A DNA stretch of 61,869 bases, taken from NCBI GenBank assembly GCA_903940125.1, contig CAJAJL010000036.1, positions 1 to 61,869 of the forward strand. The letters run 5' to 3'. Origin of the DNA: an uncultured Chlorobiaceae bacterium (GTDB lineage Bacteria; Bacteroidota; Chlorobiia; Chlorobiales; Chlorobiaceae). The translations under genes and the position numbers were made by a program. The notes beneath the pieces were generated by a model. That model made no database searches and had not been told where the DNA came from. It saw only the letters and a program-made list of their open reading frames with translations. Positions 46,853-61,245 of this stretch are shown in pieces; position 1 is the first letter of the stretch, and the number at the start of each line of letters is the position of its first letter.

Positions 46853-47650
46853 TCAGCTTTGCGTATAAGTGTGGACACTGTTTTGTGCTGAAGGAAGATA
46901 GTTGACCCCGAACCAGCATACAAGCAGCACAAGAAAAGCAAGCGCCAGATACCACTGCAGCTTACTCTGGTCTATCTTGTAGCGGAATGCATGGAGGTAT
47001 CCAAGATAGGCAAGCCATGAAAGAAACGCCCATGTCTCCTTCGGATCCCATGTCCAGTAATGACCCCATGCTTCTTTCGCCCAAAGAGCGCCGAATATAA
47101 GACCGAATGTCAACAGTACAAAACCAAGCAGGGCCAGATAGTGTGAAACCGATTCGCCTGTGTGATTCCCTTTGGATCGAAGCTGCATGTAGACGTTGTG
47201 CAACGCTGTAATAGACGATGTGGCGAGCAGAACATAGCCGACCAGATATACTACGACATGCGGAACAAACCATGGACTTTGCAGCGCAGGCATAAGTGTC
47301 TTGTCAAAGACTTCGGGATGAAGTATGTTGATGGCGAGAAAAAATGCCGCGAGTGCCATACAGTAATACTTCAGCCATCCGATTTTCCAGCGGTATTCTA
47401 CAAGAAATCCGACGAGAGGGATAAGGGTAGCGTACCAAAGACGAGTTTCACCAAGTGTTCTGAGAGGAGGACGATCAAGAGCCGACCAGTAAAAAGCTAT
47501 AAACCCTGCCATTATTGCCGAACCAGCAAAAGAGAGTGCAAAAGCAGGAATTTTCAATGCAGGCGTTCGACCTGAAAAAAAACTTAGCAATGAACCAGTC
47601 GCCCAGCAGGCAATGGCAAGTTCTGCTGCAGTGTTAAAATTCACTATCAT
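46853..47650 (-). CDS. ccsA: Cytochrome c biogenesis protein CcsA/ResC (system II)
   Basis: This is the haem-handling half of the system II synthase. The 265-residue polytopic protein contains the WWD-type motif WGHYWTWDPKETWAFLSWLAYLGYLH and conserved His residues flanking it. It forms the CcsBA complex with the adjacent ResB-type protein, attaching haem to CXXCH sites outside the cell membrane. Overlap with ccsB is 4 bases, so the two are translationally coupled. It is adjacent to the cytochrome cluster whose products it must mature. Confidence 0.93.
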   Translation of the reverse strand: MIVNFNTAAELAIACWATGSLLSFFSGRTPALKIPAFALSFAGSAIMAGFIAFYWSALDRPPLRTLGETRLWYATLIPLVGFLVEYRWKIGWLKYYCMALAAFFLAINILHPEVFDKTLMPALQSPWFVPHVVVYLVGYVLLATSSITALHNVYMQLRSKGNHTGESVSHYLALLGFVLLTFGLIFGALWAKEAWGHYWTWDPKETWAFLSWLAYLGYLHAFRYKIDQSKLQWYLALAFLVLLVCWFGVNYLPSAQNSVHTYTQS

Positions 47651-48885
47651 TTTTTAACCTCGGTTCGTTTAATGCCATTCCAGAAAAAAAGGATGTTTGC
47701 CGCCATAATCATAAAAAACCCAAGATAAACTGCGGGCAGCCATGGATCATGGATAACTTCGATCAGGCTTAATTTTGACCATCGTCCAGCCTTTTCATCA
47801 TAGCCCATCTGATAGAGTTTCCATCCGATAAAATTAACAGGATGGTTTACCTCAAGATTTGCAATTGTTTCATGGCCTTTTTCATCCTGCACAGTTACTG
47901 CTGAACGGAATGATTTTGGTGTGCCTGGTACCATGATCAGATAAAAACCGTCCATTTGTGCCGCGTCAGGTTTCAGTAACGGGCTGCCTGTGCTGATCCA
48001 TGCTTCGCGCTGTGCGGAAGCTGAGTTGATCCTGACTTTTGCAAAAGGGATGCCTTTAGCACGATCTGCAGGTTGAGGTATACCATTGTTTCCAGGAAGA
48101 GCGCTGGGAAGATATTCGAGCACAAGAACCTCTATTCCCTGCCATGTTGCTGTTGTCCCCTTCCGTACTTCCAAAATGGCCTGTGACTTGTTCATGAGGA
48201 GCTTGTCGTTATGCGGGTCGTATAAGAGCAGTTGTGGAGGGTACTCTTCAAGTGAAAAGTCATGCAGAAATATAGAAAATGGCAGCTGTTGCGGTGTATC
48301 GCTATCCATAGTATACCCAAGGTTATTTGCCTTTCCTACATTAATTGGCACGACAAGACGTTGAAGGTCGGAACTTCCAAAAACTGCGCATGACAGGGCA
48401 ATCCAGAACCCGGCATGAAACAGGATGAACTGGATATTCTGTGGTTTAACAGGTATAAGTTTCCAAGAAAGAGAAATACCAAGGTTGGCAAGAAACAGCA
48501 GGACTGCTCCTGCAAAAGGCCAGCTTGAAAAAATCTGATTCAAGCCAAGCAATACCGGCAGTGAGCTTTTTGCTGAGGCCTGTTGAGGTATTACTCCACC
48601 TATCAATGAGAGCAAGGCAATTGCAAGAATCAGACAGAGGCCAAGAGGAATTCCTCCTAACCATTTGACTAAAGGAGTATTCCTTAAAACCAAACCAGTG
48701 CATAACACTATAGCAGCAAAAAGCGATAATGCTATTGCGTTGAAAGGCAGGTGAGGCATTGCAATACCGCTTCCAGAAGAAGCAATCTGAATTACAAAAC
48801 CTGCAACAACCGCAAGTGCCGTGAAAAGCGCAGATTCCCTGAACTCCCATGGAGCCTGAAACAACCGACGTCGGACAACCACCAT
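47647..48885 (-). CDS. ccsB: Cytochrome c biogenesis protein CcsB/ResB (system II)
   Basis: The 412-residue protein has the ResB layout: four membrane helices (three in the first 150 residues and one at about 380-400) and a large periplasmic domain. Features include LSLIGGVIPQQ near helix 2, FHAGFWIALSC and VNHPVNFIGWKLYQMGYD in the periplasmic part. It starts at ATG 48885. With CcsA it matures c-type cytochromes. It reads leftward from the same 1.1 kb gap that precedes cyc2, suggesting a shared control region. Confidence 0.9.
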   Translation of the reverse strand: MVVVRRRLFQAPWEFRESALFTALAVVAGFVIQIASSGSGIAMPHLPFNAIALSLFAAIVLCTGLVLRNTPLVKWLGGIPLGLCLILAIALLSLIGGVIPQQASAKSSLPVLLGLNQIFSSWPFAGAVLLFLANLGISLSWKLIPVKPQNIQFILFHAGFWIALSCAVFGSSDLQRLVVPINVGKANNLGYTMDSDTPQQLPFSIFLHDFSLEEYPPQLLLYDPHNDKLLMNKSQAILEVRKGTTATWQGIEVLVLEYLPSALPGNNGIPQPADRAKGIPFAKVRINSASAQREAWISTGSPLLKPDAAQMDGFYLIMVPGTPKSFRSAVTVQDEKGHETIANLEVNHPVNFIGWKLYQMGYDEKAGRWSKLSLIEVIHDPWLPAVYLGFFMIMAANILFFWNGIKRTEVKK

Positions 48886-49611
48886 AATGACAACCTGAAT
48901 TAACCTTTATTATAATAAATCCTTAAGCATGAGAGTACAATGCATTCAGCATGAAAACAGTATCTAAACCCAAACAATGACAAACTACTGTGCCAGATAT
49001 CAGTTAACCTAAAGTAATCGCTATTCGTTGATTACCATTTCGGTAAATAAATAAAACAGCCATGAAAAGCCCGCAAATGCTTTGAGTTGCGGGTGATTAC
49101 CATGGACTTGCAATGTGTGAAGTTTGCAAATATAACCGGGGAACAAGAGTTTAACAAATATCAGGAACTCCCATTCTTTTGTCTACATACTTTATATATG
49201 TAAAGCATGTAACTGTTAGCGGTAATATCTATAAAAATTCTATATCTCGTTTTTGTTATAGCTCAAATTACGGAACGAACATCCAGTATTTCTATTGATG
49301 AAGTTTAAAAAAAAAAAAAGCAGTTTGTTGTTTTTATTGGCTTATAATATTAAAATGGGGAGTAAATAAAAGTATAACATACCATATATCTGCTATAAGT
49401 TTTTGTGATTCGACGTGTTATATGAGCAATAATTCGCAATAATTTATTTTTTTAAATAAATATTTTAACAATTAATTAACAATCGTTATTATCAGTGAAA
49501 TTTATAAATGAAGGTTTGCTGGGCGCAGTATGATAAACATGGTTTAAGTTCGTGTAGGTATTTAGGAGGCAGGTTATCATGTACTGTATGAGCAAGGATT
49601 GTTAGTAAAGA

Positions 49612-49650: not shown

Positions 49651-49704
49651 AATATTTTATACCATATTCATGGTATCTTTGATCGATACATAGCTGATTT
49701 GTTG

Positions 49705-50015: not shown

Positions 50016-51263
50016 ATGAGAAAATCGACATTTGCGTCAATTGCTTCGCTCTGTATGGTACCAGCTTTATTCTGGAGTCAGGATAGTTCAGCGGTACCGG
50101 CGTTTGCAAGAAAGTATCAGACATCATGCTACACCTGCCACTCCGGTTTCCCGAACAGGAATGCTTTTGGTGAAGCCTTCAAGAATAACGGCTACCGCTG
50201 GCCGGGTGGGGAAGAAGAAGATCATGCCAAGCAGGAACAGACAAAAATGGGCGCAGCAGGCTGGAAAGAAACTTTCCCTAACTCGCCTTGGCCTTCAGAC
50301 ATCCCGGGTTTTGCTCCATTTGCTTTGTTCGTTACAGGTCCACTGGTTAATTATGCTGATCAGGTAAAGAATAATAATGGTGTGGTAACAAAACAAGAAA
50401 CGTTATATCAGGGTGGTCCTATTGACGCTCGTATTTTGTTTGGCGGTACAATCGGAGAAAATCTCGGTGTAGTTGGCGCTATTGAAGGTTTTGTTAGGGG
50501 TGCAACAGCAACCAATCTGAGAGCAACATGGTCGTTTGCGCCTGGTGTTAACCTCGGTTTTGGTAATGGATTCAGCGCATGGACTGGTGCTGCAAGCCCA
50601 ATTTCGGTTTACACAAGTGTATTCCCTGGGTCAGGAACAAGTACAGAGTTGAATTATACTACAGGGAAGCAGGGTGGTTTCAATCTTATTGCCGGTGTAG
50701 CAAGTAAGCCTACCGATACCATATTAATACCTAACATTAATAGCGACAAGCTCGATGATACACGGTATGTTCGGGCAAAATACAAACTGTTTGGTGCAGG
50801 TCTGCTGAGCGGTGCTGGCGGTGTATATGGCAATGAGTATGTTGGTCTGGATAACAGTTTGGCTATTGGTGTGGGTCTTGTCAATGCAAATAAAGGTATC
50901 CTTGCGAGTAATTATGCGAATGAGACGTTAGTCTACGGAGCAGATATTGCCGGAAACTATGGTAGCTTTACCGCTGGTGCGGCTTACAGTAAGGATAGTG
51001 ATCTGCAGCTCAATAACTATGCTGTTGATGCAGGCTACTACGTTTATCCATGGCTTCTGGCAAGGGTAAGGTATGCTAATTTAGGAGTGGCAGGTGTTGA
51101 TTTGAACAACCCGACAGTCACAGCATCGGTAACAGCATGGCTCAGAGCTAATGTTTCTGTAGCAGCTTCGTACAAGCGTTTCACCAAGGATACGTTACCA
51201 ACATCAACGAGTGGTGAGAACAATCAAAACACCTTTACATTGACTACCGCATTTGCGTTTTAA
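50016..51263 (+). CDS. cyc2: Cyc2-like fused cytochrome c-porin, candidate outer-membrane Fe(II) oxidase
   Basis: The 415-residue protein has a signal peptide (about 1-26). A single haem-binding motif CYTCH (38-42) lies in PAFARKYQTSCYTCHSGFP, and the rest is rich in alternating polar/hydrophobic strands. The C-terminus is a Phe (TTAFAF), as in outer-membrane barrels. This is the Cyc2 arrangement: a small cytochrome domain plugging a porin of about 16 strands, which takes electrons from Fe(II) at the cell surface. Family length (about 400-450) fits. The neighbours supply the inner electron carriers. The Fe(II) substrate is inferred from the family. Confidence 0.85.
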   Translation: MRKSTFASIASLCMVPALFWSQDSSAVPAFARKYQTSCYTCHSGFPNRNAFGEAFKNNGYRWPGGEEEDHAKQEQTKMGAAGWKETFPNSPWPSDIPGFAPFALFVTGPLVNYADQVKNNNGVVTKQETLYQGGPIDARILFGGTIGENLGVVGAIEGFVRGATATNLRATWSFAPGVNLGFGNGFSAWTGAASPISVYTSVFPGSGTSTELNYTTGKQGGFNLIAGVASKPTDTILIPNINSDKLDDTRYVRAKYKLFGAGLLSGAGGVYGNEYVGLDNSLAIGVGLVNANKGILASNYANETLVYGADIAGNYGSFTAGAAYSKDSDLQLNNYAVDAGYYVYPWLLARVRYANLGVAGVDLNNPTVTASVTAWLRANVSVAASYKRFTKDTLPTSTSGENNQNTFTLTTAFAF

Positions 51264-51518: not shown

Positions 51519-52070
51519 ATGCAGGATGACAGAGAGCTCGTAATAGAGCAACAGGAAGAAAATGCAGGTCAGGCGGAGTCAAGCGCTCGACGGAAATTTC
51601 TGACACGGGTTGGCTGGGGCAGCCTTGTGGGGTTTCTTGCCCTGAATTCAGCGGCCTTTTTACGATTCCTTTACCCAAGAGTGCTGTTTGAACCTCCGTC
51701 ACAGTTTAAGGTCGGTTTTCCATCAGATTACCCTCCGGGAGCGGTTAATTCTCAATATCAGAGAGAGTTCAGTACATGGATTATAAGGCTGCAGGACGGC
51801 AGTTTTTTTGCTATGGAGACTAAATGCACCCATCTTGGCTGTACACCAAGCTGGATGGAGGCACAGAAGAAATTTAAATGCCCCTGTCATGGAAGCGGCT
51901 ATTATATAACAGGGTTGAATTTTGAAGGCCCTGCACCTAGGCCGATGGATCGATTTAAAATAAGTATTGCCGAAGATGGTCAGCTGCTGGTAGATAAAAC
52001 AATCAAGTATCCGGGTGTTCCTGGAAAAGAATCGAATGAGGTCTATCCTGAGAGTTTATTGAAAGTGTGA
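51519..52070 (+). CDS. Rieske iron-sulfur protein
   Basis: This is the Rieske subunit of a cytochrome bc-type complex, 183 residues. A twin-arginine motif (ARRKFLT, 23-29) precedes one membrane helix (about 33-50), so it is exported folded by Tat and stays anchored. The [2Fe-2S] ligands are in CTHLGC (Cys103, His105) and CPCHGS (Cys121, His124), with the disulfide pair Cys108/Cys123. It begins the run ferredoxin, cytochrome b, subunit IV, cytochromes c. Confidence 0.93.
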   Translation: MQDDRELVIEQQEENAGQAESSARRKFLTRVGWGSLVGFLALNSAAFLRFLYPRVLFEPPSQFKVGFPSDYPPGAVNSQYQREFSTWIIRLQDGSFFAMETKCTHLGCTPSWMEAQKKFKCPCHGSGYYITGLNFEGPAPRPMDRFKISIAEDGQLLVDKTIKYPGVPGKESNEVYPESLLKV

Positions 52071-52094: not shown

Positions 52095-52433
52095 ATGAAT
52101 ATGGGTAGTGATGAGAATAAAGCGGCGCTTCGGAATCCATCGCCACTGCAGAAAGTTTCCGGAGCGCGTAAACGTGCGGCGGCAAGGGTTATCTCAGAGC
52201 TCTGTACAGGGTGCAGGATTTGTGTTCAAACCTGTCCCTCAAACTGTATAACAATTGTAGAGTCCGAATTGAATTTTACCGGGATCGCACAAGTGGATGA
52301 GAGTTGTACAGGCTGTAATATATGTGCCATAGATTGCCCGTGGACTGGTGTCGAGATGGTTAATCCGGACGGAACACGCAAGGATGAAGCCGAATATCTG
52401 AGGCAGTTAAAGAGGTTGCGAGGATATCAGTAA
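52095..52433 (+). CDS. Ferredoxin with two [4Fe-4S] clusters, encoded inside a bc-type operon
   Basis: The 112-residue protein has CTGCRICVQTC (Cys37/40/43/47, then Pro) and CTGCNICAIDC (Cys71/74/77/81, then Pro). These are the two four-Cys motifs of a bacterial 2[4Fe-4S] ferredoxin. The N-terminus (about 30 residues) is polar and basic, with no signal or membrane segment, so the protein is cytoplasmic. It lies between the Rieske and cytochrome b genes, an unusual place. It may bind the cytoplasmic face of the complex and pass electrons between quinone and a low-potential acceptor. This is inference. Confidence 0.88.
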   Translation: MNMGSDENKAALRNPSPLQKVSGARKRAAARVISELCTGCRICVQTCPSNCITIVESELNFTGIAQVDESCTGCNICAIDCPWTGVEMVNPDGTRKDEAEYLRQLKRLRGYQ

Positions 52434-52463: not shown

Positions 52464-53237
52464 ATGAAAAGCCTACCAGAGATAACTGACAAAGTGAAAA
52501 AGAATCTGATATGGAAATCCGTATTCAGACGAGATTATCGTAATACCGTAAGAGACCGTGCTCAAGCTGTTTTCGGTAACGTTTTTCTTCATCTGCACCC
52601 TGTGCAGGTACGGGAAAGCGCAGTCAAACTTCGGTTTACCTGGGGAATGGGAGGGATTACTTTTTTTGCCTTTATCATTCTTATTATTACAGGTGTTGTT
52701 TTGATGTTTTATTACCATCCTTCGATAGACCAGGCATACACTGATATCAAGGATCTTGAATTTCAGGTACCATTTGGTGTAATTCTCCGTAATCTCCATC
52801 GTTGGGGAGCTCACTTTATGGTTATTGTTGTTATGATTCACATGTTCCGGGTGTTCATGACCGGATCTTATAAAGCTCCTCGACAATTTAATTGGGGTGT
52901 TGGAGTTATTCTGCTGGTACTTACCTTTCTTTTAAGTTTTACCGGGTATCTAACACCGTGGGATCAGCTTGGGTTCTGGGCCATCACCGTTGGAACAAAT
53001 ATGGGTGCAGCGACACCATTACTTGGATATCAGGGTCCATTCAGTGAGTATCTGCATATTACACCATACAATGATGTGCGTTTTGCCCTTCTTGGCGGGG
53101 CACGGGTTGGCGGTAATGCTCTTTTAAGATCTTATATCTGGCATTGTGTTGCTATTCCTCTTGTAGCGACAATTTTAATGTTGGTTCATTTCTGGCGTGT
53201 CAGAAAAGATGGTGGAATTTCAAAACCTCAAAAATAA
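52464..53237 (+). CDS. Cytochrome b (b6-type, N-terminal half)
   Basis: The 257-residue membrane protein has four helices with the two haem b His pairs His112/His126 (LHRWGAH and MIHMFRV) and His227/His242. The second pair is 15 apart, as in b6. GYLTPWDQ (161-168) is the Qo/haem region block. The b6f-type Cys for haem ci is not present near WGMGGIT. The split between this gene and the next follows the b6 / subunit IV pattern. It forms the quinone-reactive core of the complex. Confidence 0.92.
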
Positions 53238-53257: not shown

Positions 53258-54142
53258 ATGAACCCTTTTATTGAAATCATTACCCAGCCTGATAATATTG
53301 CCATTGTGATCATGGTCATTATGGTGACATTCTATATGGTTTGGGCTTTTCAGCAGGCCTTTCAGAATGACAGGCTTCTTGCGGCGGGACTTCCTGTTGA
53401 CGGCGAAAACGATAGGTTTGTTGACACATTCAAACCTCTTGTGCGCATTGAGCTGATTATTGCACTTGTCGTAATGGTTGGCCTTACGGTATGGTCTATA
53501 TTGGTTGATGCTCCGCTGGAGGAGATTGCCAACCCGACCTTAACCCCGAATCCTGCAAAGGCTCCCTGGTATTTTCTTGGCCTTCAGGAACTACTGGTCT
53601 ATTTTGATCCATGGCTTGCAGGAGTGGTGCTGCCTTCTCTGATTGTTGTCGGTCTCATTGCAATTCCCTATATCGATATAAATCCGAAGGGAAACGGCTA
53701 TTACACATTTGCAGAGAGAAAGTATTCAATAATCATTTTCTCATTTGGATTTTTTGTTCTCTGGCTGCTATTGATTGTAATCGGTGTATTTTTTAGAGGA
53801 CCGGGCTGGCTTTGGTATTGGCCCTGGCAGGAGTGGGATCATTCCAGAGTTGTTTTCGAACCTACAAAGGATTTGACGGCTCTTATAGGGATTGAGTCAA
53901 GATCTCTTGCAGGATTTATTATTGGTGCTGTAGTTGTCGGCTTTTATATGATAGCTGGCATGATTGCCCCTTACATGTACTGGAAGAAAAATAATCCTGA
54001 TCTGCTCGCACAGCTTGGGATGATCCGGTATGTAACCATTGTATTTTTATTTATAACCATGATGGCTATACCGATAAAAATGGTTCTAAGGCTGGTTTTT
54101 CTTATAAAGTATGTATGGATAACCCCGTGGTTTAGCGTTTAG
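53258..54142 (+). CDS. Subunit IV-like C-terminal half of cytochrome b
   Basis: The 294-residue protein has about six helices. The Qo-site motif is APWY (102-105, in NPAKAPWYFLGLQELL), the variant found in menaquinol-type bc complexes instead of PEWY. This fits a menaquinone-using organism. Compared with plant subunit IV (about 160 residues) it has an extra N-terminal helix and two extra C-terminal helices (about 216-240 and 257-287), which may help anchor the c-type subunits. It lies 20 bases after the b6-type gene. Confidence 0.9.
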   Translation: MNPFIEIITQPDNIAIVIMVIMVTFYMVWAFQQAFQNDRLLAAGLPVDGENDRFVDTFKPLVRIELIIALVVMVGLTVWSILVDAPLEEIANPTLTPNPAKAPWYFLGLQELLVYFDPWLAGVVLPSLIVVGLIAIPYIDINPKGNGYYTFAERKYSIIIFSFGFFVLWLLLIVIGVFFRGPGWLWYWPWQEWDHSRVVFEPTKDLTALIGIESRSLAGFIIGAVVVGFYMIAGMIAPYMYWKKNNPDLLAQLGMIRYVTIVFLFITMMAIPIKMVLRLVFLIKYVWITPWFSV

Positions 54143-54207
54143 CACTGGTCAATAAGCTCTGGTATACGGTAACAGGTCATTCTAAAAAGCCCAAAAAACT
54201 CTTGAAC

Positions 54208-56823
54208 ATGGCGAATGAGAATAAAAGCAATTCATCCCTAAGGCTCTACATCTTTGTTTTTTTCAGTGTAGTATTGTTAGCTCTCTCTGTATGGGTGGTA
54301 TGGGATGATGAATTTGGCCTGAGGCCATGGAAAAAATACCAGGAAGAGTATAAAACTCTGAAGCACGATAAACTTGAAAAAGACTATCGCCTTGCAGTTG
54401 TTGAATTTGAGCGATCTGGTGGACATAGAAAGCTTGCCGAGCTGGAGGCTAAGTTAGAAAAGGCCGAAGCTGTTTTCAAAAGCAAGGATAACCAGGAAAA
54501 GTATGCAAAGCTGAACTCGCAGTTGGAAACGGCACATGAAATCCTTACGAAAAGCCAAAAGGAGCTTAGGGATTTCCGAGGTCAGTTTCTTGAGACGGAG
54601 TACTATTATACAAAAACACAACAGCCGGATTATAAGGCTAAGATGGATGTTTTGCAGCGCAGTATTGACGCTGTTGTATTGCGGGTAGCTGCGCAGCAGA
54701 AAGTTGAGGATTCTATTAAAGGATCATTGTCGTCGCTTACTGCAGTAACGGCAGGCATCCGGGCCGAGATAGAGAAAATGAAGAATGGTCTTGAGGAGAA
54801 AAAAGAGAAAATTGCAAACAATCAGAAAGTACCGGTCGAGATCAAGCAGATTCATATTGCTGATGTCGACAAAGCTGATCGTTGCCAATCGTGTCACATT
54901 GGAATAGATGGTAAAAGTCAGGTTTCAGGCAAGCAGCCATTCACAAGGCACCCGGCAAGTTTTGTCTATCTCGACCATCATGATCCTGGAAAGTTTGGCT
55001 GCACCTTCTGCCATCGAGGACAAGGTCGTGCGACAACTTCAGCTGAAAAAGCACATGGTAATATCAAGCATTGGGATGAACCGATGCTACAGGGTGATAT
55101 GACACAGACATCGTGCTTGAATTGTCATGGTGATATAAAAGGCCTTCGTGGTGCAGAAAAAATTATTAAAAGCACTGAGCTGATAAAGAAGTATGGATGC
55201 TATAGCTGCCATAAAATTCCTGGATATGAAACAGTTGGTGATGTAGGACCTGTTCTCACACAAGTTGGTACCAAGGTGAATTATTCATGGGCTACCAAAT
55301 GGTTGATGGACCCTAAAAAATACTTTGCAACAGCCAGGATGCCAAAGTTCTATTTTACTCAGGATCAGGCAGAGGCCATTGCTGACTATCTGTTCAGCAT
55401 GTCAGGCACCACCCGTCATGATGTTGATAATACAAAGAACAAGTCGGATGCTAAGCTTATCGAGCAGGGTAAAGCATTGTGGGCACAGTCTCGTTGTAAT
55501 CTCTGCCATATAACTGGAGGTAGAGGTGGAAACAATGTTAAAGTATACGCACCGGATTTAAGTAAAGTTGGGAGCAAAGTAAACAAGGAGTGGATGTTCA
55601 AATGGATTAAAAATCCAAATGACTATTTCCCTGGTACCAAGATGCCCCGATTCCGCTTTACTGATGAGGAAATCAATGCTCTTGTCGCATACATAACAAC
55701 AGAGTATCAGGATGAAGATGCGGAGTACAAATATGTTCAACCGGTTGATATCAAGGCAGCCTCAATAGCGAAAGGAAAAGAGCTGATCCAGAAATATGGC
55801 TGTTACGGTTGCCATAAACTTCAGGGTATGGAGGATATGGTTCAGGTTGCACCATCACTCAGAAAACAAGGCGTTACCTTCCTTAGAAATAATGAGATGC
55901 GCGAAAAGATAGGAATGGAGCTCTCCTCTATTGGAAGCAAACCAGTAGATATGCTTGATTTCGGAAAGCTTAAAAAATCTATTCCTAACGACCGTTTGAG
56001 TTATATCAAGCAGAAACTGAGAGATCCAAGAGGTTACCGGCTTGGATTACGGATGCCGAATTTCCGTCTGGCCGAATCAGAGATAAATGAATTGGCTTCA
56101 GTCCTCTATGGTTTTACCGATGCAAGTGTGCCTACTCGTTTTCTTGTGCCTTCTCGACAGGAGTTGGATAGAATGGCAGGTGTACCTTCATATAAATTCA
56201 CTGGTGACTTTGCGAAGGTTATTGCTGATGTTAAATGCACCAACTGCCACTCGATCCGTGGTATTGGAGCAGATTATGCCCCTGATATTTCAATTGCAGG
56301 TAGTAAACTGCAGGAGGGATGGATTCGCAAATTCCTTGCTAATCCTGATGTGATTCGTCCTCTGTTACAGCAGATGCCGAAGTTCGGGTTATCAACAGGA
56401 AAACCTCAGGCAAAAGTAACTATGCCAAGGTTTAATCTGGGACAACAGAAGGTAGAAGATACGAACAAAACGGATGTTGATGTTGTAATCAACTTCTTCC
56501 AGCAGGAGCTTCTTTCAAGCGATATACCGAAAGTGATACCTGCTATTGCTACAGTGACGTTACCGGATCAGATTGTAAAAGGCAAGCAGCTCTATGATCT
56601 CAAAGGTTGCAAGGCTTGTCATCAGATAGGAACGGAAGGTGGCGCACTTGGTCCTAATCTAACGAATGTCGGTAACCGGTTGACGTCCGGATTCATTTTC
56701 AAACATCTTGAAAATGCACGGAAATTCAAAACCGATATTGTTGAACCAAATTATGGTTTCACAGAGCCGGAAAGAATTTACTTAACTAACTATTTGATGA
56801 CCCTGAAACTGGACGCTAAGTAA
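54208..56823 (+). CDS. Membrane-anchored octahaem c-type cytochrome
   Basis: The 871-residue protein (ATG 54208; a TTG lies 6 bases earlier) has one N-terminal helix (about 11-32). A long Lys/Glu-rich coiled coil follows (about 45-205), then eight CXXCH sites beginning at residues 226, 265, 303, 331, 430, 532, 677 and 801. Motifs such as ARMPKF, TKMPRF, LRMPNF, QQMPKF and VTMPRF repeat after the later haems and could supply Met ligands. It therefore looks like fused small cytochrome c domains. It probably serves as the c-type subunit of the Rieske/b complex or as a wire across the periplasm. Confidence 0.88.
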   Translation: MANENKSNSSLRLYIFVFFSVVLLALSVWVVWDDEFGLRPWKKYQEEYKTLKHDKLEKDYRLAVVEFERSGGHRKLAELEAKLEKAEAVFKSKDNQEKYAKLNSQLETAHEILTKSQKELRDFRGQFLETEYYYTKTQQPDYKAKMDVLQRSIDAVVLRVAAQQKVEDSIKGSLSSLTAVTAGIRAEIEKMKNGLEEKKEKIANNQKVPVEIKQIHIADVDKADRCQSCHIGIDGKSQVSGKQPFTRHPASFVYLDHHDPGKFGCTFCHRGQGRATTSAEKAHGNIKHWDEPMLQGDMTQTSCLNCHGDIKGLRGAEKIIKSTELIKKYGCYSCHKIPGYETVGDVGPVLTQVGTKVNYSWATKWLMDPKKYFATARMPKFYFTQDQAEAIADYLFSMSGTTRHDVDNTKNKSDAKLIEQGKALWAQSRCNLCHITGGRGGNNVKVYAPDLSKVGSKVNKEWMFKWIKNPNDYFPGTKMPRFRFTDEEINALVAYITTEYQDEDAEYKYVQPVDIKAASIAKGKELIQKYGCYGCHKLQGMEDMVQVAPSLRKQGVTFLRNNEMREKIGMELSSIGSKPVDMLDFGKLKKSIPNDRLSYIKQKLRDPRGYRLGLRMPNFRLAESEINELASVLYGFTDASVPTRFLVPSRQELDRMAGVPSYKFTGDFAKVIADVKCTNCHSIRGIGADYAPDISIAGSKLQEGWIRKFLANPDVIRPLLQQMPKFGLSTGKPQAKVTMPRFNLGQQKVEDTNKTDVDVVINFFQQELLSSDIPKVIPAIATVTLPDQIVKGKQLYDLKGCKACHQIGTEGGALGPNLTNVGNRLTSGFIFKHLENARKFKTDIVEPNYGFTEPERIYLTNYLMTLKLDAK

Positions 56824-57269
56824 TGCAAAAAAACTTAAAAATCAGGAAGATCGCCCTACTCGCAGCTCTTTCATTGCTTGTCATTTCGGGTTGTGGTAAG
56901 AAGCAAGGAAAAGCAGAGAAAGCTGATCAAAAAAAATCGGAAGTTGCTGTAGATTCAGCATCGGTTGCTGGGCAGAAGATACCGTATGCTTTAAAAGAAG
57001 GCAAGCGACTCTTCTCCCACTACTGTGCGGTGTGTCACGGAGAAACCGGAGATGGAAGTGGACAATATTACGGATTGACACCTTCACCAGCCAATTTTAC
57101 CGATAAGGCGTTTATGAAAACCTTGCCTGACGACAAACTGTTTAAAGCGATAAACGAAGGGTCAGCTTCAGTGGGCAAGTCAAACATGTGTCCTCCATGG
57201 GGTAAATCATTTCATCCCGAGGAGACAGAGTTTATTGTTGCCTATATTAGAACCCTTGCAGGCAGTTGA
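56823..57269 (+). CDS. Lipoprotein monohaem cytochrome c with CPPW in place of MPPW
   Basis: The 148-residue protein has a lipobox VISGC (Cys24) and one haem site CAVCH (68-72) followed by GETGDGSG, as in class I cytochromes. The usual axial Met before PPWG is a Cys here (NMCPPWG, Met122 Cys123), so the sixth ligand could be Cys or the Met one residue back. Its start overlaps the stop of the octahaem gene (TAATG). Lipid anchoring suggests it works close to a membrane. Confidence 0.88.
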   Translation: MQKNLKIRKIALLAALSLLVISGCGKKQGKAEKADQKKSEVAVDSASVAGQKIPYALKEGKRLFSHYCAVCHGETGDGSGQYYGLTPSPANFTDKAFMKTLPDDKLFKAINEGSASVGKSNMCPPWGKSFHPEETEFIVAYIRTLAGS

Positions 57270-57349
57270 ACGAAACAACAAATTTGTTCGTTGTATGATT
57301 TCGATCCAGAAAAAAATATTTCTTAATAACCTAATTTATGGAGAAGAAC

Positions 57350-57949
57350 ATGTTGAAATGTAAAAGCAGCTTATTGAAAACAGCTTTTTTAATGACAAGT
57401 TTCGGGTTTATCGCATCAAATGCTTTTTGCGGTGGTACAATTACAGGTACAGTTGATGCAAGTATTCCCAAGTACAAAGCGGATGCAGTTGTATATCTTT
57501 TAGGTGTGAAGGGTCCGGTTACTCCGCAGCATGCATCTGTTGATCAAAAAAGTCTTGTTTTTGTTCCTCATGTAACTGCTGTGCCGGTTGGATCAACGGT
57601 CGACTTTAAAAACAACGATAAAGTCAATCACAATATATTTTCAGCATCAGCTGCAAAAAAATTCAATCTTGGTACCTATAATCCAGGAATGTCAAAACCT
57701 GTTACCTTTGATAAACCTGGTGTGATTAATCTGCTCTGTAACGTTCACTCAGAAATGTCTGGTTATGTTGTTGTGACAGAAAACCAATATGCCGCAGTTT
57801 CAGAACATGATGGAAAATTCACTATTAGTAATGTTCCTGCAGGAACCTACAAAATCACTGCGTGGAGTGAAAAACTGAAAGCACAGGAAGGTACAGTGAC
57901 CGTTGCTGATGGTAAAACTGCCACTGTAACAGTAAAACTTGCAAAATAA
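57350..57949 (+). CDS. Exported cupredoxin (amicyanin-like) with C-terminal beta domain
   Basis: From ATG 57350 (site GGAGAAGA just before) the product has 199 residues with a signal peptide (about 1-27). The blue-copper ligands are His94 (KVNHNIF), Cys130, His133 and Met136 (CNVHSEM), with the C-x2-H-x2-M spacing of amicyanin. Residues about 150-199 look like a carboxypeptidase-regulatory or DUF2012-like beta sandwich (DGKFTISNVPAGTYKITAW). It is a mobile periplasmic one-electron carrier, probably linking the cytochromes of this cluster. It is the last gene before a strong terminator. Confidence 0.85.
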   Translation: MLKCKSSLLKTAFLMTSFGFIASNAFCGGTITGTVDASIPKYKADAVVYLLGVKGPVTPQHASVDQKSLVFVPHVTAVPVGSTVDFKNNDKVNHNIFSASAAKKFNLGTYNPGMSKPVTFDKPGVINLLCNVHSEMSGYVVVTENQYAAVSEHDGKFTISNVPAGTYKITAWSEKLKAQEGTVTVADGKTATVTVKLAK

Positions 57950-58625: not shown

Positions 58626-59768
58626 ATGGCTACAATTATCTGGACGGGGTCTACCGGTAATGATACCATAAGATTTGCCACTTATGGTCAACCGAGTTCA
58701 ACAAATACCTATACTTTGGATGCATTGGCAGGTACCGATACGTTAGATATGGTTGCTGGCAATCAATACGCATCAAAATTTATAAGTTCAAATTTTACAA
58801 TAGGCACAGCTGATTCCAATGGAATGATTGTAGTGACCGGTGCCAGTTCTGGAGGGAAGGACCATTTTACATTCAATCTGAAAAGTGTGGAATCCATAAA
58901 GTTTTCTGACACAACAGTTCAACTCTCTTACGGTACTCCGGTACCTCCGGCTGACACAACACCACCGACAGTATCTGCGTATAGTCCAGCGGTTGGAGCA
59001 ACAGGTGTTGGAGCAGGCAGCGACATAGTTCTAACCTTCAGTGAAACAATAAATAAGGGCTCTGGAGCAATTGAGCTGCATAGTGACTCAGCAACAGGAG
59101 CACTTGTTGCAAGCTATGATGTGGCGACGAGTACCAATCTAACCGTTACGGGCAATACACTCACTATAAATCCAACGGTTGATTTGTTGAACGGGACGCA
59201 TTACTATGTTACGCTGGCGGCGGGTTCCATTAAGGATGTAGCTGGAAACAGCTATGCGGGTACGACAGCCTATGATTTTTCGACGACCTCTGCGACACCT
59301 GCTACCGACACCACACCTCCGACAGTTGTGACTTTCAACCCTGCCAATGCAGCTACAGGGGTTGGAATCAGTAGTGATCTCGTTCTTACTTTTAGCGAAC
59401 CGGTGCAGCAGGGTACTGGTGTGATTGCAATTCACAATGGTTCTACAACTGGTGCCGTCGTGGCAAGTTCTGACAACCCGATGACTGAAAGTATTTCGAT
59501 TTCAGGTTCTACTCTTACGATCCACCATACCAATAATCTGGCGTACAACACTCACTATTTTCTAACGTTTGGCCAGGCATCAGTCAATGACCTTGCAGGG
59601 AATCACTTTGATGGTAATACTCCTTACGACTTCATCACAGAACAAGCACCTATTGCACCTTCTATTCCGATAGTTAATCCGGGGACAACAAGCGGTAACA
59701 GCGATATTACTTCTATCATAGTCGGTGGAGGAATACTGGGTGCCTTGTCGTGGGTTCTTTTTTTATAA
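58626..59768 (+). CDS. Surface-type protein with two bacterial Ig-like domains
   Basis: The 380-residue protein has a distinct N-terminal domain (about 1-105: GSTGNDTIRFATYGQPSS, later KSVESIKFSDTTVQLSYG) reminiscent of GNDT-type calcium-binding sequences. It then has two SbsA/Big_5-like domains (about 112-222 and 230-340), each starting DTTPPTV and containing GVG-SDIVLTFSE. It ends in a hydrophobic tail of 18 residues (SIIVGGGILGALSWVLFL) without following charges. There is no N-terminal signal. Function unknown; adhesion or surface-layer roles are common for such domains. The site AGGGGAAG precedes the ATG. Confidence 0.75.
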   Translation: MATIIWTGSTGNDTIRFATYGQPSSTNTYTLDALAGTDTLDMVAGNQYASKFISSNFTIGTADSNGMIVVTGASSGGKDHFTFNLKSVESIKFSDTTVQLSYGTPVPPADTTPPTVSAYSPAVGATGVGAGSDIVLTFSETINKGSGAIELHSDSATGALVASYDVATSTNLTVTGNTLTINPTVDLLNGTHYYVTLAAGSIKDVAGNSYAGTTAYDFSTTSATPATDTTPPTVVTFNPANAATGVGISSDLVLTFSEPVQQGTGVIAIHNGSTTGAVVASSDNPMTESISISGSTLTIHHTNNLAYNTHYFLTFGQASVNDLAGNHFDGNTPYDFITEQAPIAPSIPIVNPGTTSGNSDITSIIVGGGILGALSWVLFL

Positions 59769-59952: not shown

Positions 59953-60123
59953 TCCCCGTTTTCAATTGAAATTGCTTATGAGATTATATCACTATCTCAT
60001 ACCTCAAAAAGTAAAATACTTCTGATGGCAGATTGCTCAAGAGTATCATAGGTTCTTGATGCGTCTCAGGGGTAGACGGCTGTGATTGTAGTTAAATATA
60101 ATTCTAAATGTTGGGGCACACCA

Positions 60124-61245
60124 ATGAAATCAGTCACGAAAGAAACAACAAATGTTATCGGAGCTGCCCTTTTTGCTGCAGCTATTTCCTTGCCATTATC
60201 TCAATCTGTATTTGCTGAAGCAGCTCCAGAGCGTGGTATTGTCAGTTTCAAGTATCTTAATTACAAGGACAGCCAACCCGATCAGGAGCGAGTAAGCGTA
60301 AATGCCTATACAGTTATGGGAATGGCGCCTATAGCAGGAAAATGGTCAATAAGTACGACCTACACCAATGATTCTGTTTCAGGTGCATCTCCGGAATATA
60401 ATTCACATATAGTTTCAGGTGCTTCCAAAATGAAAGATCACCGGGAGGCTGTTGATCTGAGTATTACTCGTTATTTTCCAATAGGATCGTTAACCTTGGG
60501 AAGCAGTTATTCAAAGGAGAACGATTACATTTCGCGCAGCTATTCAGTGCAACAGAGCATTTCGACCGAGGATAAGAATACAACTTTCACTTACGGCGGC
60601 AGCTATACTTCCGATACCATCAATCCCACAGTCAACAAAGATTTATTTTACGACAAAAGAATCGTTTCCGGGATGATTGGGTTAACCCAGGTTTTGACGA
60701 AGCGGGACATCGTGCAGCTTAACCTAGGTTATTCAAGGGCCAAGGGCTATAATAGTGACCCTTACAAGTTGTTTGACGAGAGGCCGGATCAGCGGGAAAG
60801 TAAGACGGTCATGACTCGATGGAACCATCATTTTGATGGAAAAGATGGTACCTCAAGGCTCTCATACCGCTATTATACCGATACCTTTGGTATCAACGCA
60901 CATACCTTTGGAATAGAGTATGTCCAGCCACTGCCAAAAGAGTGGACGGTAACACCGCTCGTGAGGTTTTACTCCCAAACAGCAGCGAATTTTTATCTTC
61001 CCGGTTTTCCTGATGCTTCAGCGGATCTGCCGACATATTACTCCTTGGATCAGCGTCTTTCAGCTTTTGGTGCAGTAACGATTGGTATCAAACTTGAGAA
61101 AAAAATTGCCAAGGATTGGCTTGTAGATGCAAAAATTGAGAGTTACCAGCAGCGTGCAGAATGGAGTATAGCCGGAGGTGGAGACACTGGTCTGGCTCGA
61201 TTCAGTGCGAGAAGTATTCAACTTGGCTTGTCGCGAAACTTATAG
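60124..61245 (+). CDS. DUF3570 outer-membrane beta-barrel protein
   Basis: From ATG 60124 the product has 373 residues with a signal peptide (about 1-31, ending VFAEA). The family pattern is clear: VSFKYLNYKDSQPDQERVSV, SVSGASPEYN, KDHREAVDLSITRYF, SYSKENDYISRSYS, LTQVLTKRDIVQLNLGYSR, SDPYKLFDERP, RWNHHFDGKDG and a C-terminal QLGLSRNL. Strands alternate as in outer-membrane barrels. The role is unknown. Relatives are often near flavin-transfer or thioredoxin-like genes; here it is paired with Ig-like proteins. A GTG at 60082 extends the frame but lacks a signal start. Confidence 0.88.
   Translation: MKSVTKETTNVIGAALFAAAISLPLSQSVFAEAAPERGIVSFKYLNYKDSQPDQERVSVNAYTVMGMAPIAGKWSISTTYTNDSVSGASPEYNSHIVSGASKMKDHREAVDLSITRYFPIGSLTLGSSYSKENDYISRSYSVQQSISTEDKNTTFTYGGSYTSDTINPTVNKDLFYDKRIVSGMIGLTQVLTKRDIVQLNLGYSRAKGYNSDPYKLFDERPDQRESKTVMTRWNHHFDGKDGTSRLSYRYYTDTFGINAHTFGIEYVQPLPKEWTVTPLVRFYSQTAANFYLPGFPDASADLPTYYSLDQRLSAFGAVTIGIKLEKKIAKDWLVDAKIESYQQRAEWSIAGGGDTGLARFSARSIQLGLSRNL

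Follow-up and report, generated by a model that had tools for sequence, protein, structure and literature searches.

The window analysed here, a stretch of 61,869 nucleotides from an uncultured member of the Chlorobiaceae, carries a gene for a single-haem cytochrome-porin (50016..51263, forward strand), which raises the question of what such a protein does in a green sulfur bacterium and whether it marks its host as a photoferrotroph. In Chlorobia, cyc2 is in use as a marker of photoferrotrophy; if two classes of protein unrelated by function are lumped under this name, many lake genomes may have been miscalled photoferrotrophs from the wrong gene. The answer bears on the life of green sulfur bacteria in iron- and humic-rich, sulfide-poor lakes. 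Of chief interest are the unit formed by the porin and a bc complex of its own, a concrete and testable chain across both membranes, and a putative operator in common with sulfur genes, from which follows a testable prediction on when the porin is used.

The gene is an ATG-initiated open reading frame of 415 amino acids with a single CXXCH (C38-H42) and the C-terminus ...TAFAF, the last residue being Phe, exactly as the first-pass annotation described it. Its N-terminus resembles a signal peptide (MRKS, a hydrophobic stretch and ...DSSA/VPAF), as judged by eye and from the conserved start. Full-length homologs with 30-89% identity, present across dozens of Chlorobiaceae genomes, rule out a chance open reading frame. 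No family in Pfam or NCBIfam was above cut-off for the protein, and no relative was found in the PDB by single-sequence or profile search or in the viral contigs searched. The AlphaFold2 model, built from an alignment of 42 homologs, has 16 long strands running from residues 102-114 through 406-414 (pLDDT 75.7, pTM 0.75). By Foldseek, its top matches in the PDB are outer-membrane porins, including OprP (2o4v, TM 0.50), which is the template named for Cyc2 (PMC8406198). The strand-rich remainder claimed earlier is therefore borne out. Of the expected barrel of about 16 strands with the haem domain in the pore, the barrel stands and the haem placement is conjectural, the haem domain being modelled at low confidence (residues 18-34 and 63-80 below 50).

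A search of 61 related genomes with the window porin separated two classes of cytochrome-porin in Chlorobia: full-length relatives, and a second class sharing only about 60 residues around the haem. The first, or RKY, class has the motif P-x-[FW]-[AGS]-R-K-Y..CH-xxx-P-x-R-N (in short, FARKY...TCH...P-x-R-N), and the second, or FARQT, class has [AS]-x-P-x-[FY]-[AS]-R-Q-T..CxxCH-xxxx-P-x-L-N, read in the genus as FARQT..CxxCHFQRFPLLNAYGRSFKANGYT. The classes can thus be told apart by a simple motif, FARKY..P-x-R-N versus FARQT..P-x-L-N. FARQT genes usually adjoin a gene for a small monohaem c cytochrome, and are present in 13 of 37 genomes of the genus, the window genome not being among the 13.

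The claim that the window protein is of Cyc2 type holds in the broad sense. The signature AXPXFAR[QK][TY], called unique to Cyc2 by Keffer et al. (PMC8406198), is present as A26-V-P-A-F-A-R-K-Y34, followed by QTS and then C38; there is a single CXXCH in a protein of at least 365 amino acids; and the predicted 16-stranded porin is similar to OprP/OprO. However, four residues after CXXCH, the place of PXL, a motif said to be shared with other cytochromes (PMC8406198), is taken by P46-N-R48, and the porin is therefore filed here as Cyc2-like, not as plain Cyc2. Arg occupies the third position of PXR in all 33 Chlorobia RKY rows examined, and the Ignavibacteria relatives have PML. Invariant in the RKY clade are R32, K33, Y34, C38, C41, and H42. 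A conserved Met or additional His was considered as sixth haem ligand and rejected, none reaching 80% in the clade.

The source genome is a 2.98-Mb draft of a green sulfur bacterium, 98.6% complete, in which both the FMO protein and dsrA are present. Three RKY-class porins are encoded, on contigs C36 (the window gene), C46, and C100, and a cluster-1-like FARQT Cyc2 is absent from the assembly at this completeness. Since MtrB/PioB was not found in this genome either, the window porin may, by default only, be its best candidate surface oxidase. Contamination of the assembly was considered and rejected, as the mnmE-ccsA-resB-porin synteny recurs in many Chlorobiaceae. The paralog on C46, of the a2 type (L051:8975-10986), is oriented divergently to an adjoining small monohaem cytochrome gene, and several related a2 genes are adjoined by one or two such cytochromes.

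Downstream of the window porin, the Rieske gene starts 255 nt after the porin stop and opens a tight run on the forward strand. The products are a Rieske iron-sulfur protein (51519..52070; PF00355; CTHLGC...CPCHGSGY), a ferredoxin-type protein with two 4Fe-4S motifs (52095..52433; PF14697/PF00037), a cytochrome b6-type subunit (52464..53237; PF00033), a subunit IV-type C-terminal half of cytochrome b with the variant Qo motif APWY (53258..54142; PF00032), a membrane-anchored c-type cytochrome with eight CXXCH and a long helical stalk that separates its anchor from the haem part (54202..56823, the probable start being the ATG at 54208), a monohaem c-type cytochrome that is probably a lipoprotein (56823..57269; PF13442/PF00034), and a periplasmic cupredoxin-like protein (CNVHSEM) with a carboxypeptidase-regulatory-like domain (57338..57949; PF00127 and PF13620). 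The Rieske ligands (CTHLGC/CPCHG), the pairing of PF00033 with PF00032, the candidate haem His 112/126 and 227/242, spaced 14 and 15, and APWY are those of a Rieske/cytochrome b complex, and the best solved match of the b6-type subunit is b6 of b6f (6rqf). Because the genome also encodes, at another place (C121, 41% identity), the fused cytochrome b that green sulfur bacteria usually have, the downstream set is, judged from its genes, the second bc complex of this organism. The octahaem cytochrome model (pLDDT 47) is well predicted only for the anchor and a helical stalk of approximately 170 residues. As there is no terminator-like site between the porin and Rieske genes, the bc genes would be under the same control as the porin and would share its promoter.

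Upstream, on the reverse strand, are the conserved neighbours ccsA (46853-47650; named from sequence) and resB (47647-48885; PF05140), both for cytochrome c maturation. Downstream, on the forward strand, are two frequent neighbours, a Big_5 Ig-like repeat protein (58626..59768; PF13205) and a predicted outer-membrane protein of the DUF3570 family (60082..61245; PF12094), the latter near both cytochrome-porin classes. DUF3570 and Big_5 genes are found downstream of RKY porin clusters as well as of FARQT cyc2 loci (L047, L049), and may belong to cytochrome-porin function in general.

The linkage of porin and bc complex is conserved. Among the 37 genomes of the genus, the second b6 subunit (at least 91% identity) and an a1-type porin, the close form of the window porin as assigned by identity and motif, are found together in the same 11 genomes (11/11, versus 0/26 of the others). 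Copies of the a1 type without bc genes nearby exist (L090, L111), while in the genus every second bc complex seen came with the porin; the linkage is therefore one-way. In 28 loci, the porin stop and the Rieske start are 177-443 nt apart and the order Rieske-ferredoxin-b6-subunit IV-octahaem-monohaem-cupredoxin is kept. The set is also present in Chloroherpetonaceae (L136) and, in changed order, in Ignavibacteria RBG_16_34_14 (L161) and two further families of Bacteroidota (L203, L204), with a looser version in another member of that phylum (L212). Five loci have porin-cupredoxin pairs with the bc genes not nearby (L205-L207, L210, L211), and G052, a genome from Bacteroidota, has the bc complex and no porin match. 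In other Chlorobium genomes, the slot from mnmE-ccsA-resB to DUF3570 holds an a2-type porin and no bc complex (L109, L110, L114, L119, L122, L126, L159); it seems that porin modules are exchanged in this slot.

Alignment of the upstream regions of close porin orthologs revealed a palindrome, TACCATATTNATGGTA, approximately 340 bp upstream of the window porin ATG and conserved in close relatives. Together with a genome scan, this places a putative operator common to sulfur-assimilation genes at 49660..49675 on the forward strand (TACCATATTCATGGTA). The genome-wide scan, in which palindromic sites were counted on both strands, gave five perfect sites and others with one or two mismatches, 20 in total, versus five for the reversed pattern. 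The perfect sites are upstream of cysK, of a sulfite reductase-like gene accompanied by cysH, of the gene for a sulfate/thiosulfate-type binding protein, of a gene on contig C69, and of the window porin. Weaker matches were found before another cysK and before the gene for a sulfonate-type binding protein. Likewise, three other genomes (G016, G033, and G005) have sites with no more than one mismatch before cysK, sulfite reductase-cysH, a sulfate-binding protein or outer-membrane protein gene, and the cytochrome-porin. In G003, the porin of which is on a more distant branch, the only site precedes cysK.

Across all loci, the operator was found at -341 to -373 from nine of the 32 distinct a1-type genes and upstream of no a2 (0/23), a3 (0/21), FARQT (0/20) or other (0/14) gene, and is therefore a lineage-specific trait. 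The nine a1 genes are close relatives and not independent; the putative regulon within the genome is the stronger evidence. Because the putative operator is common to the porin and to sulfur-assimilation genes, scarcity of reduced sulfur probably induces the porin module in this lineage. Another conserved block upstream of the gene, TTTTAACAATTAATTAACAATCGTTATTAT (49464-49491), holds a -10-like hexamer and may be a promoter, and an 11-bp inverted repeat at approximately 49612 is not conserved. The gene on C69 (L243, L248) encodes a protein of at least 408 amino acids with no Pfam match and has two operator copies upstream; the same contig carries sulfate- and sulfonate-type transporter genes. 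An outer-membrane protein of approximately 390 amino acids, also with no Pfam match, has the sulfur operator in five genomes (L246:13-1191, reverse strand; L258, L264, L266, L268), and may be a porin that admits sulfate or organosulfur compounds.

Taken together, the reading preferred here, and judged somewhat better than an even chance, is that the window gene encodes an outer-membrane porin of the RKY clade of Cyc2-like proteins, with a predicted monohaem domain facing the periplasm, and that it is the electron port of a trans-envelope chain completed by the downstream bc/octahaem genes, with electrons probably flowing inward. The haem domain, on the periplasmic side, would pass single electrons through the outer membrane, as has been proposed for Cyc2 (PMC8406198). 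The cupredoxin and the monohaem lipoprotein cytochrome would be the periplasmic carriers, the stalked octahaem cytochrome, anchored in the inner membrane, would be the hub, and the second b6f-type menaquinol/cytochrome c complex would form a further part of the chain in the inner membrane. The periplasmic c pool would receive electrons from dissolved Fe(II) or from reduced humics and feed them to the type I reaction centre, although as regards specificity for Fe(II) the porin is a candidate only. The bc complex would link this pool to menaquinone and, in inward flow, may carry out the uphill reduction of menaquinone or sustain cyclic flow. Its role during inward flow is the weakest step, as the reaction centre could take electrons directly from the c pool; a dedicated bc complex fits uptake loosely, because a type I reaction centre can use Fe(II) without one. 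Also counted against this reading are the lineage-specific operator, the long distance (approximately 340 bp) between operator and ATG, and the description of cluster 3 Cyc2, to which this clade may belong and which Fe(III) reducers carry, as 'probable iron oxidation and possible iron reduction' (FeGenie, PMC7005843).

The dedicated quinol-oxidising complex is what an outward route would need, and the best surviving alternative, although an unlikely one, is that the second bc complex oxidises menaquinol and electrons leave through the octahaem and monohaem cytochromes, the cupredoxin, and the porin, as overflow or dark respiration, with humics, Fe(III) or other cells as acceptors. This is in keeping with the presence of the cluster in Ignavibacteria and other Bacteroidota outside Chlorobia, and with the occurrence of cluster 3 Cyc2 in iron reducers (PMC7005843). 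However, control shared with sulfur assimilation would point to use of the porin when sulfide, the usual donor, is missing, and the Cyc2 proteins that have been characterised oxidise iron (PMC8406198). Furthermore, Trout Bog Chlorobium populations take up electrons from their surroundings in the light (PMC12285243), and the two populations in question carry both RKY and FARQT porins. Inward flow is for these reasons favoured over export.

Less probable still, at long odds, is a haem-plugged porin with a different function, for example the uptake of sulfur compounds or metals under sulfur limitation, with the haem serving assembly or sensing. Sulfate uptake genes and the gene for an outer-membrane protein of ordinary appearance (C13 and homologs) do have the same operator, but it is missing from most a1 orthologs and from all a2 and a3 genes sampled, in which the haem site is kept. 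The bc linkage is also kept in a1, and linkage to redox genes extends across the phylum.

The FARQT class agrees with the cluster 1 Cyc2 published for photoferrotrophic Chlorobia, on the basis of its motif, its small monohaem neighbour, and one genome (G123) that is taken here to be P. luteolum DSM 273. A genome scan with the mixed alignment A1 gave matches mostly in Chlorobiaceae. In a tree of 63 rows, including three proteobacterial homologs from the plasmid search and with cluster 1 represented by the Chlorobium FARQT proteins, the RKY and FARQT classes are on opposite sides of a branch with support of 100/97. On the FARQT side are the Chlorobium FARQT proteins, the proteobacterial plasmid homologs, and one Bacteroidota protein; the RKY side holds the remaining Bacteroidota together with Ignavibacteria and Chloroherpetonaceae. 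A single clade of all Chlorobia proteins was rejected (AU p=0.0125), with a weak barrel alignment and some long branches. This is good but not final evidence that the RKY proteins, the window porin included, are separate from the Chlorobium FARQT clade.

Cluster 1 Cyc2, that of neutrophilic Fe oxidisers such as Mariprofundus (Cyc2PV-1), Chlorobium ferrooxidans, and other photoferrotrophic Chlorobia, is described as the marker of photoferrotrophic Chlorobia (PMC8406198, PMC7029218, PMC12442345) and, in Chlorobi, as acquired from Proteobacteria (PMC9342728, PMC12442345). It shares with the window porin a signal peptide (putative in the latter), AXPXFAR..CXXCH, a 16-stranded porin, a length of approximately 400 amino acids, and a terminal Phe. 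Compared with the Chlorobium FARQT proteins as representatives, however, the window porin has KY for QT after FAR, PXR for PXL, a spacing from CXXCH to P that is shorter by one residue, and a barrel that cannot be aligned by BLAST; its neighbours are a bc complex, in place of a lone small cytochrome, and the clades are deep and separate. The earlier proposal that it is the canonical cluster 1 Fe(II) oxidase of photoferrotrophic Chlorobia, for which the signature motif, single haem, 16-strand porin, and terminal Phe would speak, is thus very improbable in view of the separate clade, PXR, homology confined to some 60 residues around the haem, and different neighbours. An extension of Cyc2 type to the cluster 1 marker is not supported, and the call of a probable photoferrotroph does not follow, as the porin is in another clade, the marker-class Cyc2 is absent and dsrA is present; nor is it warranted when the RKY clade and gene cluster also occur in Ignavibacteria and other Bacteroidota outside Chlorobia.

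The RKY clade may belong to published cluster 3, which includes the Leptospirillum Cyt572, reported as long-branched and with an unusual haem (PMC8406198), and homologs from DeMMO Ignavibacteriales. Ignavibacteria RBG_16_34_14 and one DeMMO MAG have RKY members; of the DeMMO Cyc2 from sites other than D1, the majority have been typed as cluster 3 (PMC8478452). The nearest parallel in parts is Acidithiobacillus ferrooxidans, in which a Cyc2-type porin, periplasmic cupredoxin (rusticyanin), c cytochromes, and a dedicated bc1 complex are encoded in two operons, rus (cyc2-cyc1-cup-cox-rus) and pet (PMC10654088). In the window, by contrast, a single cluster encodes the porin, the cupredoxin, and a bc complex of b6f type that includes an octahaem subunit, and the host is a phototroph that lives anaerobically and uses a type I reaction centre. 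A wider proposal, tentative and rated at rather less than an even chance, is that the RKY porin with its own b6f-type, octahaem, and cupredoxin partners is a native electron chain of Chlorobia, older in the phylum than the acquired cluster 1 Cyc2, and that one lineage has placed it under a sulfur-starvation regulon, for a switch from sulfide to extracellular electrons.

Cyc2 homologs have been published in Ignavibacteriaceae and Bacteroidetes (PMC6344600, PMC8478452). In the literature searched, that available without subscription, there was no account of a separate RKY class in Chlorobia, of its link to a bc complex or of the sulfur operator. For Trout Bog Chlorobium GSB-A and GSB-B, three Cyc2 homologs per genome have been published, one of them strongly transcribed, and in the accessible text the classes are not separated and bc linkage is not mentioned (PMC12285243). 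The GSB_A and GSB_B MAGs each have one a1 and one a3 porin, both RKY, and one FARQT porin, matching the published count of three. The a1 gene of the GSB-B MAG, an example of the form with the operator, is frameshifted near the C-terminus (L087:10001-11246; the same gene in L215 and L223), either through error or as a pseudogene. No mutual exclusion of the bc-linked porin and FARQT Cyc2 was seen in the genus (3/11 versus 10/26 genomes, p=0.71); L227-S-6D and L304-S-6D, for instance, have both the bc cluster and a FARQT Cyc2. In Chlorobium L227-S-6D (L098:10001-20022), the RKY porin-bc cluster is directly followed by a small monohaem c cytochrome and a FARQT cyc2.
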